Assembly: GCA_018714105.1 (NCBI GenBank)
Contig: DVNW01000002.1
Coordinates: 1-58,648, forward strand
Source of the DNA: Candidatus Faecicola pullistercoris
GTDB lineage: Bacteria > Bacillota > Clostridia > Christensenellales > CAG-917
Direction of reading: 5' to 3'
DNA length: 58,648 nt
A model generated the notes under the pieces. That model did no database searches. It was given only the letters and a program-made list of their open reading frames with translations, and was not told where the DNA came from. Made by a program: the position numbers and the translations under genes. Below are positions 11,788-17,687 of this stretch, piece after piece (within the stretch, counting starts at the first letter, position 1; every line of letters starts with the position of its first letter).

Positions 11788-13367
11788 TGGTATTGACCTT
11801 AGGCTCGGTCGCAAGCGTATTTACCACTATCGGATATATAATCCTCGCCGTACTCGCGCTTATGTTCATGATAGTAGTGCACGAGTTCGGGCATTTTATC
11901 GCCGGCAGAAAACTCGGCTTTAAGGTAAACGAGTTTTCCATAGGCTTCGGCCCTGCCATATTCAAGAAAAAGTTCAAGGACGGCCTGCAGTTTTCCATAA
12001 GGCCCATACCTCTGGGCGGATACTGCGCCTTCGAGGGCGAGGAGGAAGACAGAGACAAAGAGGTTAAAGGCGCGTTTAACAATCAGGCTCCGTGGAAGAG
12101 GATAATAGTGCTTTTCATGGGCGCGTTTTTCAATTTCGTATCCGCCGTAATAATACTTACCATATTTTTCAGCATATGGGGACAGCCGCTTACCACCGTA
12201 GTGGGCGTATTCGATAATTCCGTAAGCAGCACAAACGAGTGGTTCAAGCCCGGAGACGCAATACTCAGCGTCGACGGCAAGATGGCAAACGTGCTTCTTG
12301 CCAACGACAACGCGTTCAACAGCGTCAAGGGCGACAGTGCGGAATTCAGAGTATTAAGGGACGGCAAGGTAGTTAAATTCACCGCCACGAAAGGCGAGTA
12401 TACCTCTTACGAGTTTTGCGTCGAAGACGACTGGATTGTCTATGCGGAAAACGACGGCGCCGTGAACGCCGTTAAGATTGCAGACAGTACGCAGTATACC
12501 TATCTCGGCGGCGTAATGTATAAGGACGCCGACGGTACGGAGAGCTTTTACCGCTTTTCCAATCACGGAAGCAAAGAGATACAGGCGCTGCTGTCCGACG
12601 ATAGCGTTACGGTAACGCAGATAGTTCTTTACCGCTATTTCGACGAAAACAAAAACAGTATAGATTACGAAGCCGTTAACGCAATAACCGACCATAACAA
12701 CAAGGCAGAAATAACCGATCAGATAAAGTATTACGTCGATAACGTATATATAAGTCTTATTCCGACGGAGGAAACTTCCAAGCCCGCCCGGATAACCACC
12801 GAAACTTCGGATACCGTTACCGTTTACAACGTAAACCTTTATACCGGCGCGAACGAATACGGCAATATCGACGTTAACGGAGCAAGCCTTGCTACCGAAG
12901 ATCTGCTCGGATTTACTTCCATGAAGGCCACGCAGCGCTACGGTTTCGGCGTGAATACGGGAACCTATCTCGTGCGCCTTAACTTTTTCCGTGCGTTGTC
13001 AAGGGCAGTGCCTTATACCTTCTTCGTAGTGTTTAAGATACTGGCAAGTCTCGGATTGCTTTTCCAGCCCGGAGGACTGTCGCAGGCGGGCGGTCCCATT
13101 ACCGTCGTAAAGACAATAAGCGACGTCGCGCAACAGGGTTTTTACAACCTGTTCTGGATAATATGTATTCTGTCGGCAAACCTTGCCGTTATGAATCTGC
13201 TGCCTCTGCCCGCGCTTGACGGAAGCAAAATCGTGTTCACCTTCATAGAGTGGATAAGAGGAAAGCCGCTTAACAGAAAAGTGGAGGCCGTTATTCATAC
13301 TGTCGGAATAATCGTGCTGTTCACGTTTACCATCTTTTTGGATATATTCCATCTTGCGGGGGGATAA
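11787..13367 (+). CDS. rseP: RseP-type intramembrane zinc metalloprotease (site-2 protease, M50)
   Basis: A 526-residue membrane protease of the RseP/RasP family, which cleaves anti-sigma factors and signal peptides inside the membrane. The zinc site HEFGH is at residues 32-36 and the third ligand region NLLPLPALDG is near the C-terminus, flanked by transmembrane segments. A PDZ domain follows the second hydrophobic segment. The protein is about 100 residues longer than usual. The extra part lies between the PDZ domain and the last membrane segments (about residues 212-382) and is rich in Asp, Tyr and Thr. The ATG at 11787 overlaps the dxr stop; a TTG three bases earlier is less likely. Confidence 0.93.
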   Translation: MVLTLGSVASVFTTIGYIILAVLALMFMIVVHEFGHFIAGRKLGFKVNEFSIGFGPAIFKKKFKDGLQFSIRPIPLGGYCAFEGEEEDRDKEVKGAFNNQAPWKRIIVLFMGAFFNFVSAVIILTIFFSIWGQPLTTVVGVFDNSVSSTNEWFKPGDAILSVDGKMANVLLANDNAFNSVKGDSAEFRVLRDGKVVKFTATKGEYTSYEFCVEDDWIVYAENDGAVNAVKIADSTQYTYLGGVMYKDADGTESFYRFSNHGSKEIQALLSDDSVTVTQIVLYRYFDENKNSIDYEAVNAITDHNNKAEITDQIKYYVDNVYISLIPTEETSKPARITTETSDTVTVYNVNLYTGANEYGNIDVNGASLATEDLLGFTSMKATQRYGFGVNTGTYLVRLNFFRALSRAVPYTFFVVFKILASLGLLFQPGGLSQAGGPITVVKTISDVAQQGFYNLFWIICILSANLAVMNLLPLPALDGSKIVFTFIEWIRGKPLNRKVEAVIHTVGIIVLFTFTIFLDIFHLAGG

Positions 13368-13368
13368 C

Positions 13369-14409
13369 ATGAGCTTTAAAGTAAAAGCGGGCGCCGTAGA
13401 GATAGGCGGCGGCGCGCCCGTAAGCGTACAATCCATGACCAATACCCGTACGTCCGACGTAAAAGGGACGCTGGCGCAGATAGATTCGCTGTTTCGCGCG
13501 GGTTGCGAAATCGTGCGCGTCGCGGTAAGGAACGAGCAGGACGCTTCGGCTATATCCGACATTGTAAAAGAAAGTCCCTTGCCCGTGGTTGCGGACATAC
13601 ATTTCGACTACCGTCTGGCCATAACCGCGGCGAAGAACGGAGCGGCGAAAATACGCATCAATCCCGGCAATATAGGCGGGGAGGACAAGGTAAAACGCCT
13701 TGCCGACGTTCTCGGCGGTGCGGGCATACCCGTAAGAATAGGCGTGAACGGCGGTTCTCTCGAATCCGAATTCGGCGGACTGCCTCTTTACAAAGCCATG
13801 GCTGAAAGCGCGCTGTCGCACCTTGCAATGCTTGAAAAAGCGGGGTTTCACGATACCGTGATATCGGTAAAAAGTTCGGACGTCGTGCAGACGGTGAAAG
13901 CCTATCGGCTTCTGGCTTCGGAAACGGACAACCCCTTACATATAGGTATAACGGAGGCAGGCACGGTAAAATCGGGGCTGATAAAAAGCTCGGCGGGTAT
14001 AGGATCTCTGCTTCTGGACGGAATAGGCGATACGGTAAGGGTTTCGCTTACGGCAAGGCCCGAAGAGGAGGTTTTCGCCGCGAGAAAGCTGCTTAACTGT
14101 TTAGGGCTCAGGAAGGATATGCCCGAAGTTATATCGTGTCCTACGTGCGGACGTACCGAAATTGACGTGCAGGGGCTTGCCGACGCTGTCGAGCAAATAG
14201 CCGTTCAGGCGGGGAAGCCGCTCAAAATAGCCGTGATGGGCTGCGTCGTAAACGGAATCGGCGAGGGTAAGGAAGCCGATTTCGGCGTGGCCGGCGGCAA
14301 GGAAAAATCCGTTTTATTCAAAAAGGGGAAGAAGTACAAGACCGTACCCAACGGCGAAATACTCGAACAAATGAAATTACTTATCGGAGAATACGAAGCC
14401 GATGATTGA
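13369..14409 (+). CDS. ispG: 4-hydroxy-3-methylbut-2-enyl diphosphate synthase (flavodoxin-type IspG)
   Basis: A 346-residue IspG/GcpE, a [4Fe-4S] enzyme making HMBPP in the MEP pathway. The N-terminal TIM barrel begins VSVQSMTNTRTSDVKGTLAQI and has NPGNIGG. The iron-sulfur ligands are in ISCPTCGRTEID and in MGCVVNGIGEGKEADFGVAGG. Length is normal for the bacterial form. A TTG at 13354 could add five residues, but the ATG at 13369 follows a GCGGGGGG stretch directly after the rseP stop. The end overlaps the next gene by 8 bp. Confidence 0.96.
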   Translation: MSFKVKAGAVEIGGGAPVSVQSMTNTRTSDVKGTLAQIDSLFRAGCEIVRVAVRNEQDASAISDIVKESPLPVVADIHFDYRLAITAAKNGAAKIRINPGNIGGEDKVKRLADVLGGAGIPVRIGVNGGSLESEFGGLPLYKAMAESALSHLAMLEKAGFHDTVISVKSSDVVQTVKAYRLLASETDNPLHIGITEAGTVKSGLIKSSAGIGSLLLDGIGDTVRVSLTARPEEEVFAARKLLNCLGLRKDMPEVISCPTCGRTEIDVQGLADAVEQIAVQAGKPLKIAVMGCVVNGIGEGKEADFGVAGGKEKSVLFKKGKKYKTVPNGEILEQMKLLIGEYEADD

Positions 14410-15991
14410 AAACGCTTTCGATAAAAAATTCAAAGAGGCATCGAGGGGAAATTATCCTTTTCTTAAATTTACCGACGCCGAATACTGCGCCGGAGAAAAC
14501 AGCCTGCGTGTCAATTTTTTGCAGTCGACCAGGCATGGCGACGTTTTCGACGACGTTGCAAAAGCCGCAGTGAAACAGATTGTGCGCGACCTTGTGGGAT
14601 ACGACCTTGACGTTACGGTTAAATATACCAAATGCTACGCCGACGAAAACTCGGTAAAGCAAAAGGTAAAGCAGTTTCTCGTAAAGGAATGCGGGCTGGT
14701 ATTTACAACGGGAATGAGCGGCGACGACATATCCGCCGAGATAACCGAATCGGGCATAAAAATCGTTCTGTCCGCGCCTAAGGAAATGAAAATGATACTT
14801 GTGCAGGACGGTACGGCGGGGCGTCTTGAAGAGGAACTAGATCGGGAATTTGTCGAGCCGGTAAGCGTGGAATTGTTCGAGCGAATGCCGAAAGAGGGCG
14901 ACGCGACGTTTGACAGTATTGCCGACGAAGTGGGTTACATAGACAATTCCAGACTTATAAAAATTACTTTGCGCGATAAGGTTTACGGGCGCGGAAATAT
15001 CACTACCGCACCTATATACATATGCGACGCGGCTGAAAGCGCGAGTACAAATCTGTGCGGCAAAATAACCATAATCGACAAAAAAATGTACAATAACAAA
15101 AATTATGGCAGAAAAGACGTTAAAAAAGGCGGCCGTACAAACACCTCTGACGAACAGCTTGCGATGTATAAATTTACCCTTTCCGACACTACCGGAAACA
15201 TATCCGTGGTAGTCTTTCCCAACAAGCCCGAGGACGAGGCTCTCGAGTCGTTGCAAACGGGCGACACGCTTGCGGTAAGCGGCAGAATAGCGGTAAATTC
15301 TTATTCGGGAGACTTGCAGCTCACTGCCGATATAGTTTCCAAAGCGCTTATCGATTACGACAGTATAACCACCGAGGTCCCCGCTAAGAAAGAGCCTAAG
15401 GATTATGAGTTCGTAAAGCCTGTTCCTTATATCGAGGAAAAGCAATCTTCCATATTCGACAAAGGAGAGCAAACGCCCGATTATCTTGCGGGCAAGACTT
15501 TCGTGATATTCGATACCGAAACCACCGGGCTTAACCCCGTTTCCGATAAAATAATCGAGATAGGCGCGGTCAAGATGAAAGACGGCAGGATAACCGAAGT
15601 GTTCGAAACTCTTATCGACCCGATGGAGCCCATACCGCCGGACAGCATCAAGACGCATCATATAACGGACGACATGGTGAAGGGAAGCCCCGTATTTTCC
15701 GAGGTGTTGCCCGATTTTTACAAGTTCACCCGCAACGCCGTGCTCGTGGGGCATAACGTGGAATTCGATTATAAAATGCTTGCGGAAAACAGCAGAAACA
15801 GCGGTTATGTTTTCGATAACGAACTGGAAGACACCATAGCTCTTGCAAAGAAGTTCAGACCCATGCGCAATTATAAACTGCAAACCCTTTGCGAGGAACT
15901 TGGCGTGGTAAACGAGGAAGCGCATCGCGCTTCCGCCGACGCTTTGGCTACGGCAAAATGCTTTTACGAAATAGCCAAATATATCAAGTAA
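14402..15991 (+). CDS. PolC-like protein: N-terminal domain + OB fold + DEDDh 3'-5' exonuclease, without PHP or polymerase
   Basis: A 529-residue protein at the position (ispG...rimP) where Firmicutes carry full-length polC (~1400 residues). Residues ~1-200 resemble the PolC N-terminal domains. An OB-fold region (~185-340) contains YKFTLSDTTGNISVVVFPNKPED and LAVSGRIAVNSYSGDLQL. A complete exonuclease (~365-525) has ExoI FDTETTG, ExoII GHNVEFDYKML and ExoIII HRASADALATA (His plus Asp), so nuclease activity is expected. In PolC the exonuclease is inserted within a PHP domain. Here the PHP sequence before it is replaced by a short linker (VKPVPYIEEKQSSIFDKGEQ), and nothing follows. Only 139 bp separate the stop from rimP, so there is no decayed polymerase. 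It may be a proofreading or repair exonuclease. Confidence 0.85.
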   Translation: MIENAFDKKFKEASRGNYPFLKFTDAEYCAGENSLRVNFLQSTRHGDVFDDVAKAAVKQIVRDLVGYDLDVTVKYTKCYADENSVKQKVKQFLVKECGLVFTTGMSGDDISAEITESGIKIVLSAPKEMKMILVQDGTAGRLEEELDREFVEPVSVELFERMPKEGDATFDSIADEVGYIDNSRLIKITLRDKVYGRGNITTAPIYICDAAESASTNLCGKITIIDKKMYNNKNYGRKDVKKGGRTNTSDEQLAMYKFTLSDTTGNISVVVFPNKPEDEALESLQTGDTLAVSGRIAVNSYSGDLQLTADIVSKALIDYDSITTEVPAKKEPKDYEFVKPVPYIEEKQSSIFDKGEQTPDYLAGKTFVIFDTETTGLNPVSDKIIEIGAVKMKDGRITEVFETLIDPMEPIPPDSIKTHHITDDMVKGSPVFSEVLPDFYKFTRNAVLVGHNVEFDYKMLAENSRNSGYVFDNELEDTIALAKKFRPMRNYKLQTLCEELGVVNEEAHRASADALATAKCFYEIAKYIK

Positions 15992-16130: not shown

Positions 16131-16601
16131 ATGGAAAAAAACGTCGTTGAAAACCAGATTACCGAAATAATAAGCCCGATGATAGCCGGACTCGGTTACG
16201 AGCTTGTTAAAGTCGGTTTTGCAAAACAGTTCGGCGAAATGAATCTTACGGTAACCATATTCAAAAAGGGCGATATGTGCCATGCCGACTGCGAAAGGGT
16301 TCACCGTGCGATAGAGGACGTTGTAGACGGGCTTAATCCCAACGGCGACAGGCCTTACAATCTGTGCGTATCCTCTATGGGCCTGGACTGGCCTTTGGTT
16401 ACCGACGACGATTTCAGAAGAAGAACGGGCGAGGATATCGAAGTCTCCCTTTACGCGGCGGTCGACGGAAATAAAAAGATAGCCGGAACGCTTATGGGAT
16501 ACGACGCCGACGCTATCGAAATCTGCAGTCTGAAAACGCAGAAAAATTATAAAATAGAAAGAAAAAACTTGGCAAAGGCAATACCTTACGTCAGATTTTA
16601 G
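16131..16601 (+). CDS. rimP: Ribosome maturation factor RimP
   Basis: A 156-residue RimP (YlxS), needed for 30S subunit assembly. The N-terminal alpha/beta domain includes ISPMIAGLGYELVKVGFAKQFGEMNLTVTIFKKG and the family motif VSSMGLDWPLVTDDDFRRRTGEDIEVSLY (usually SSPGLDRPL). The C-terminal SH3-like part ends ERKNLAKAIPYVRF. TAAGGAG lies before the ATG. First gene of the conserved rimP-nusA-ylxR-ylxQ-infB-rbfA operon. Confidence 0.96.
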   Translation: MEKNVVENQITEIISPMIAGLGYELVKVGFAKQFGEMNLTVTIFKKGDMCHADCERVHRAIEDVVDGLNPNGDRPYNLCVSSMGLDWPLVTDDDFRRRTGEDIEVSLYAAVDGNKKIAGTLMGYDADAIEICSLKTQKNYKIERKNLAKAIPYVRF

Positions 16602-16613
16602 GAGGAATTTAAA

Positions 16614-17687
16614 ATGGTAAACAAGGAATTCTTTGCGGCGCTCGACGCATTGGAAACGGAAAAGCACATTCCCAAAAACGTGCTTATCGACTCGCTGGAA
16701 GCGGGTATAGTATCCGCTTACAAAAAAGAAACGGGCGAGGTCAGACCGATAACGGTCAGAATCGACGAGGACAGATGCACCATAAAAATTTATGCGTACA
16801 GGCACGTCGTCGAGGAAGTAGCGGACGAAGATAAGGAAATCAGCCTCGAAGACGCCCGCGAAATCAAGCCTTCTTACAAGGTGGGAGACGTGGTTATCGA
16901 GGACATCACTCCCAAAGATTTTTCACGAATAGCGGCGCAGACGGCTAAGCAGGTAATCATGCAGCGCATCAACGACGCCAAGCGCGACGTTGTATTCAGT
17001 GAAATGAGCGAAAAAGAAAACGAAATTCTTCAGGCAATCGTGCGTCGTAAGGAAGGCGCTACCGTCTATGTCGAAATCAGCGGCAGTCAGATGGAGGGCA
17101 TGCTTTCCGCGGCGGATCAGGTTCCCGGAGAGGTTTACAATATCAACGACGTTATAAAAGTACTTATCAAAAAGGTCAGAAACACCAGCCACGGCGCGCA
17201 GGTAATAGTATCACGCAGCGCGGCAGGCTTTGTAAAAAGACTGTTTGAAATGGAAGTGCCCGAGATACGGGCAGGACTCGTGACAATCAAAAATATCGTG
17301 CGCGAAGCGGGATACAGAACTAAAATCGCGGTATACAGCGAGGACGTTAACGTAGACGCCATAGGCGCATGCATAGGCAACAAGGGCGTAAGGGTAAACG
17401 CCATCGTCAACGAACTTGCCGGCGAGAAAATCGACGTCATTCCGTGGTGTCCCGATCCGCTTGAATTCGTAGCGCGCGCTCTAAGCCCCGCACAGGTACA
17501 GATGGTGCAGATCAACGAGGAAGAAAAGACGGCAAAGGTTATAGTTCCCGACGAAAAACTTTCTCTTGCCATAGGCAAGCAGGGGCAGAACGCCCGTCTT
17601 GCGGCCAAACTTACCGGCTGGAAGATCGACGTCAAGCCCTATTCCAGTGTAGCCCCCGCCGCAGTAAGCGAGGAAGAAGACGCGTAG
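16614..17687 (+). CDS. nusA: Transcription termination/antitermination factor NusA
   Basis: A 357-residue NusA that binds RNA polymerase and nascent RNA to modulate pausing and termination. Order: N-terminal RNAP-binding domain (~1-125), S1 domain (~135-200), KH1 and KH2 (~200-345). Motifs include ISRSAAGFVKRLFEMEVPEI-type KH entry, GACIGNKGVRVNAIVNELAGEKIDVIPW and VPDEKLSLAIGKQGQNARLAAKLTGWKIDV. It lacks the C-terminal acidic repeats of proteobacterial NusA, as usual in Firmicutes. AGGAGG precedes the ATG. Confidence 0.97.
   Translation: MVNKEFFAALDALETEKHIPKNVLIDSLEAGIVSAYKKETGEVRPITVRIDEDRCTIKIYAYRHVVEEVADEDKEISLEDAREIKPSYKVGDVVIEDITPKDFSRIAAQTAKQVIMQRINDAKRDVVFSEMSEKENEILQAIVRRKEGATVYVEISGSQMEGMLSAADQVPGEVYNINDVIKVLIKKVRNTSHGAQVIVSRSAAGFVKRLFEMEVPEIRAGLVTIKNIVREAGYRTKIAVYSEDVNVDAIGACIGNKGVRVNAIVNELAGEKIDVIPWCPDPLEFVARALSPAQVQMVQINEEEKTAKVIVPDEKLSLAIGKQGQNARLAAKLTGWKIDVKPYSSVAPAAVSEEEDA

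Follow-up and report, generated by a model that had tools for sequence, protein, structure and literature searches.

PolC variants without an exonuclease are reported from Clostridia and Negativicutes in the sections of PMC3919608 drawn on here, which also predict two KH-like subdomains for PolC and give QxxLF as a form of clamp-binding motif. The sections of PMC12926913 on proofreading report that most Clostridia with both PolC and DnaE1 have three proofreaders that appear active, and that in B. subtilis the PolC exonuclease serves DnaE3 in trans. The same source describes PolX-like proteins of polymerase family X, mostly from Actinobacteria, in which a PHP nuclease was kept after loss of the polymerase. 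Of a PolC that has lost its polymerase we found no account in open-licence PMC papers.

Here we describe such a protein from Candidatus Faecicola pullistercoris. The window – the whole stretch of DNA that was analysed – comprises 58,648 nucleotides, and the gene of interest lies at the site that polC occupies in related genomes.

A short gene at the polC site

The open reading frame (14402–15991, forward strand) begins with ATG and encodes 529 amino acids. Its 5′-end overlaps the end of ispG (13354–14409) by 8 bases; its stop codon is followed by 139 bp, then by rimP at 16131 and nusA at 16614. The neighbours are genes that we take to be ispG, rimP and nusA, and the site between ispG and rimP–nusA is where polC stands in relatives. 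The open reading frame and gene order agree with the original prediction of a 529-residue gene at the polC site, ahead of 139 bp and rimP. The features are as follows:

13354..14409, + strand: ispG, upstream neighbour, 8-base overlap (sequence and gene order)
14402..15991, + strand: short PolC-derived protein, 529 aa, without polymerase
14402..14641, + strand: N-terminal subdomain I (aa 1–80), predicted alpha-beta-beta-alpha-beta (AF2 model of the N-terminal domain alone; profile match to the PolC N-terminus)
14642..14896, + strand: N-terminal subdomain II (aa 81–165), KH-like fold (VIA-align to Era KH domain 1ega and ribosomal S3)
14954..15352, + strand: OB-fold domain (aa 185–317) (Pfam PF01336; strands in the model; structural match to PolC 9qpc)
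15353..15490, + strand: linker (aa 318–363), in place of the PHP N-half
15443..15457, + strand: putative beta-clamp-type motif QSSIF (aa 348–352) (pattern enrichment and column counts)
15491..15982, + strand: DEDDh 3′-5′ exonuclease domain (aa 364–527), with D371, E373, D456, H508 and D513
16131..16601, + strand: rimP, downstream neighbour (sequence and gene order)
16614..17687, + strand: nusA, downstream neighbour (sequence and gene order)

Pfam recognizes an RNase_T exonuclease at residues 368–521 (E 4.5e-39) and an OB-fold domain at 255–310, and all five DEDDh residues are present, as had been claimed from the letters alone. Models of complete PolC score the protein far below their cut-offs: 150 bits against 1043 for TIGR01405, and 168 against 873 for NF001688, where the best stretch is the exonuclease. 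The wide DnaQ domain model TIGR00573 is passed (123 against 71.5 bits); the equivalog TIGR01406 (dnaQ_proteo) is failed (96.2 against 222.7 bits). Alignment with 11 PolCs of the same order shows no PHP half and nothing past the exonuclease, which upholds the earlier claim that both PHP halves and the polymerase are missing; the PHP N-half, PHP C-half and polymerase are likewise missing from all 45 short forms aligned. The OB fold and exonuclease are joined by a linker of ∼45 residues. What the short form keeps of PolC is the N-terminal domain and OB fold ahead of the exonuclease, a PolC-type DEDDh exonuclease and the locus; what it lacks is the C-family polymerase core and a PHP domain split by the exonuclease.

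The window genome, which is 98.4% complete, contains no PolC and one DnaE, in support of the original suggestion that replication is done by another polymerase. Among 60 relatives PolC scores above the cut-off in 13, and in 0 of the 36 genomes of the window's family. With the short protein as query a match is returned from 58 of the 60, confined in PolC genomes to the exonuclease. Across the order we surveyed 198 genomes, each at least 90% complete: 69 carry PolC at E<=1e-100 (66 above the cut-off), 104 a nearly full-length short form at E<=1e-100, 16 a weaker short form (exonuclease degraded or partly matched) and eight, all of family f16, a diverged short form found with an f16 query; one (G356) has neither PolC nor any short form. 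No genome of the 198 is on both the PolC and the short-form lists. Fifteen family codes of the order include the short form, and named carriers are Candidatus Coproplasma, Candidatus Gallimonas and uncultured Christensenella and Christensenellaceae bins. In the NCBI taxonomy Candidatus Borkfalkia falls under Christensenellales and Coproplasma under Eubacteriales incertae sedis; the whole short-form group we presume, following GTDB, to be Christensenellales. Among 293 genomes of the class, matches that cover the N-terminal region come only from this order, among the matches listed; elsewhere in the class the matches listed are exonucleases, nearly all in PolC-size frames.

Gene order was read by script at 91 short-form loci, which are not independent genomes (some duplicate ones already coded, as with L141/G017 and L168/G043): 63 have ispG upstream and rimP/nusA downstream, 14 ispG only, 12 rimP/nusA only and two neither. 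At least one of these neighbours is found at 26 of 30 full-PolC loci, and none at the 12 loci of other exonucleases. At its own locus, then, PolC has been replaced by the short form; a check proposed with the original prediction, on whether relatives share the short form at the same locus, came out positive in many genomes.

Descent from PolC and change on the DnaE tree

When profiles were compared, the short forms matched residues 1–430 of 29 PolCs with an E value of 8e-62. Pfam is silent on the N-terminal domains – no Pfam model for this domain matched the N-terminal 190 aa of the window protein, and the families listed at E<=1 for 30 members include no PolC N-terminal model – so that profile comparison was needed here too: the N-terminal 190 aa match PolC N-termini with an hhalign probability of 96 (E 3.5e-9). 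An AF2 model of the whole chain, built on 85 aligned rows, has a mean pLDDT of 92 and a pTM of 0.71; for the N-terminal domain alone the pLDDT is 89.8. The top Foldseek match of the whole model in the PDB is the cryo-EM structure of E. faecium PolC, 9qpc (E 2e-19), and VIA-align places model residues 191–529 on 9qpc chain residues 217–591 at Z 22.8, the rmsd of 17.4 being large with two domains taken together. For the exonuclease alone, the DinG exonuclease and epsilon tie with PolC 9qpc (Z 22–24, VIA-align). The profile comparison, for the N-terminal domain, and Pfam with the structural match, for the OB fold, thus bear out the domains assigned in the original prediction.

Timinskas and Venclovas are said to have related the N-terminal domains of PolC, in 2011, to Tau domain V. 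Tau domain V is not among the structural matches listed for the N-terminal domain; KH domains are. Subdomain II superposes on the Era KH domain 1ega at Z 8.9 (rmsd 2.0 over 80 residues) and on ribosomal S3 rows at Z ∼8, which agrees with the two KH-like subdomains predicted for PolC in the relevant section of PMC3919608. OsmY and PrgH, the first Foldseek rows for the N-terminal domain (E 1e-4 to 1e-3), superpose poorly and were set aside as sharing a common fold only. By descent the short protein is a PolC.

A 62-row DnaE tree that has five genomes as outgroup puts all 39 short-form genomes on one side of a branch with an SH-aLRT of 100. Their sister is family f12, which has full-length PolC, and PolC is therefore the older state; the PolC-bearing rows do not form one group, as expected if PolC is ancestral. 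On this tree, a stand-in for the species tree made by a quick method under a simple model and including 12 of the 36 window-family genomes, the change from PolC to the short form is single. Full-length polC at this site in relatives had been named at the outset as evidence against the original prediction: it is found in sister families only, not in this lineage, and so marks the ancestral state and is no refutation. The exonuclease tree, also proposed at the outset, gave a mixed answer. Short forms and PolC exonucleases fall together on one side, with four alphaproteobacterial exonucleases on the other, as descent from PolC would have it; the short forms, however, need three changes, not one, and two long-branched stand-alone exonucleases fall among them, in a tree where many inner forks are weak and the outgroup is not one side of a branch. 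Since this tree is less clear, the claim of a single event rests on the DnaE tree.

The short form is under purifying selection: dN/dS lies between 0.056 and 0.162 in six closely related pairs, a seventh pair being saturated. The DEDDh residues, which were read in part of the 104 short-form genomes, are found in 43 of 45 whole-genome short forms and in 85 of 85 members of alignment A2, a set of short forms from which degraded ones were left out; they were also read in the f16 set, to which we return below. Conservation, as the majority fraction, is lowest in the N-terminal domains (0.32–0.35) and highest in the exonuclease (0.57).

Could the polymerase segment have been lost in assembly, or in a recent deletion that left a decaying pseudogene? 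We give this next to no credence. Nothing was found in its favour, and against it are the short form in 104 of the 198 order genomes and 24 variants at the same site, the one ancient change, the low dN/dS and the lack of PolC elsewhere in a nearly complete genome; the same form in the same place in so many genomes excludes both chance and misassembly. With 15 family codes, intact catalytic residues and purifying selection, the view first taken, of a stable architecture and not a pseudogene in decay, holds.

DnaE, the linker motif and the role of the short form

A single DnaE of ∼1200 aa per genome is the rule. All 9 residues of the DnaE PHP metal site are present in 51 of 51 proteins, whether or not the genome also has PolC, and the protein shows the marks of a self-sufficient DnaE1 as these are set out in sections of PMC3919608 and PMC12926913. 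The lack of PolC and the single DnaE support DnaE1 as the sole C-family replicase of the short-form lineage. Given an intact PHP domain DnaE may proofread alone, so that no gap forces a proofreader role on the short form; the same 51 proteins led us to reject the idea that it makes up for a PHP proofreading activity that DnaE has lost.

The linker is conserved mainly at one place, ...Y..V.P.P[YF]....Q.[SDN][LIMF][FL], and the pattern Q..[LIMF][FL] corresponds in form to canonical clamp-binding peptides. It occurs in the linker of 60 of the 85 A2 relatives; shuffled linkers gave a mean of 2.8 and a maximum of 9 in 500 rounds. Counted by column in the 85, Q is present in 65, position four is L/F/I/M in 82 and position five is F/L/I in 82. 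The window protein has QSSIF and others QADLF, QSDLF, QGDLF or QKSLF; the pattern is absent in 25 of the 85, several of them from the window's own family. All 11 full PolCs that were read from the order have a clamp-type motif of their own near the C-terminus (e.g., QISLF), and within residues 1–420 of these proteins the pattern is confined to positions 3 to 168, never after the OB fold; 50 of 51 DnaEs carry a clamp-type motif in the expected region. Along with the polymerase, then, the short form lost the tether of PolC, and it has a putative second one elsewhere in the chain. Judged by its sequence, the linker motif would hook the short protein to the beta clamp. The original prediction had spoken of kept replisome-binding domains; the clamp-type motif, which that first reading missed, gives this idea a concrete candidate.

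Taken together these data make it probable, in our view, that this former PolC is now an epsilon-like, clamp-tethered 3′-5′ exonuclease serving the sole replicase DnaE1. In one ancestor within the order PolC lost its PHP domain and polymerase, with the N-terminal domains, OB fold and DEDDh exonuclease staying at the site, and the single DnaE1 was left as sole C-family replicase. Through the linker motif the protein would be hooked to the sliding clamp on which DnaE1 also sits; next to DnaE1 at the primer end, the exonuclease on its flexible linker would trim mispaired 3′-ends, as its descent and intact catalytic residues suggest. The OB and KH-like domains might, at a guess, hold single-stranded DNA or another part of the replisome. 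If, as one section of PMC12926913 reports, the PolC exonuclease already acts in trans in B. subtilis, then a separate protein is a small step away. An essential proofreading role is a different matter, and the intact DnaE PHP sites and the loss of exonuclease residues in some families both speak against it.

The first of these points also serves an alternative: that the protein is a clamp-recruited repair nuclease, trimming 3′-ends at stalled forks or while mismatches and gaps are repaired, and no proofreader of the replicase. Replicative proofreading may be covered by DnaE, the OB fold suits single-stranded DNA, and clamp clients of repair use the same clamp motif. We nonetheless regard this as unlikely, though to be taken seriously, because the short form is kept at the replicase locus and derives from the replicase's own proofreading domain, and the neighbouring genes read are not repair genes.

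Loss of the catalytic residues brings in another alternative. The DEDDh residues are gone and the frame kept in 8 of 8 f16 genomes and in one f19 genome read; the f16 frames still measure ∼490–525 aa, and further f19 genomes, making up much of that family, and two of f99 (one genus) score as exonuclease-degraded or weakly matched with a frame of ∼500 aa persisting. Such frames suggest that the N-terminal and OB parts are useful in themselves. They are what might be expected if the protein were a scaffold first and a nuclease second, its N-terminal and OB domains tying clamp, clamp loader or DnaE together, as maybe in PolC, and its exonuclease dispensable. The pattern of conservation runs the other way, with the N-terminal domains changing most and the exonuclease least, and the DEDDh residues are perfect throughout A2 (which leaves out degraded forms); a scaffold seems to us quite improbable. 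The f16 short protein itself (L281–L288) is a possible non-catalytic replisome protein.

In the window genome the short protein is the only strong PF00929 exonuclease, the other match being weak (E 1.7e-11, in a 338-aa frame). Among 21 genomes with a degraded exonuclease, 13 have a separate small exonuclease frame (190–260 aa, E<=1e-12), three a longer one and five none; in 19 genomes whose short form is intact, no second exonuclease was found at E<=1e-12. A Fisher test of 13/21 against 0/19 gives 2e-5, which overstates the difference, as the rows are related. Several of the small exonucleases look like a different exonuclease type, and G004 and G039 have both an intact short form and an extra small exonuclease. 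Compensation by a swap of nucleases is partly borne out, with no clean rule.

Several further arrangements were seen. A PolC in the sister family f12 (L012, G046:C12) is without all five DEDDh residues, its polymerase matching well, and the same genome has a separate 177-aa exonuclease frame (G046:C39). A 368-aa protein (L289 1435–2541, G000:C18) contains DnaE-like fragments (TIGR00594 positions 253–389 and 673–740), and its palm-like stretch seems to be without catalytic aspartates; G014 and G029 have similar frames, and G020 and G025 match in part. In the DnaE of the window's family (L095 in G000, ∼aa 20–40) the PHP domain has an insertion past the second metal histidine and ahead of the next motif, of up to ∼45 residues in some members; G059 is the only PolC-bearing genome with it. 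Finally, a 464-aa DEDDh exonuclease frame (L137, G020:C38) has as its neighbour, on the opposite strand, a 366-aa frame that is DnaE-like.

Comparison with known systems

Across a large group of gut-associated Clostridia, these results suggest, an enzyme that copied DNA has become a helper in proofreading: one polymerase was removed and its proofreading domain stayed, together with a stretch of sequence that resembles a new clamp tether. PolC's two functions are thereby separated in living cells, which makes their division of labour testable, and the short form records one switch from a replisome with two polymerases to a replisome with one. It also predicts that these gut lineages are without the target of PolC inhibitors such as ibezapolstat. 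The further claim, that PolC passed once and for good from replicative polymerase to epsilon-like, clamp-tethered proofreading subunit in the DnaE1 replisome, with the newly placed motif as tether instead of the lost polymerase, strikes us as evenly poised.

With PolC the short form shares its locus, N-terminal KH-like domains, OB fold, DEDDh exonuclease and descent; it differs in having no PHP domain, polymerase core, HhH or C-terminal clamp motif, and in the clamp-type motif between OB fold and exonuclease. Like DnaQ, the epsilon subunit of E. coli Pol III, it is a separate DEDDh exonuclease with a putative clamp-type motif, found alongside a DnaE1 replicase. Unlike epsilon, it derives from PolC and not from the dnaQ line, carries N-terminal KH-like and OB domains, and has its motif before the exonuclease. 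The short protein fails both the definition of PolC and the proteobacterial dnaQ equivalog: PolC by descent, it is in our reading epsilon-like in function.

The exonuclease-less PolC, as it appears in the sections of PMC3919608 used here, is also a PolC domain variant in Clostridia paired with DnaE1, and it is the mirror image of the short form: there the polymerase stays and the exonuclease is gone. PolX-like proteins, in the account that PMC12926913 gives in part, share with the short form a nuclease that outlives its polymerase, but belong to family X and keep a PHP nuclease. If our reading is correct, the short form with DnaE1 would be a fourth Pol III arrangement, to stand beside DnaE1 alone, PolC with DnaE1, and PolC with DnaE3.
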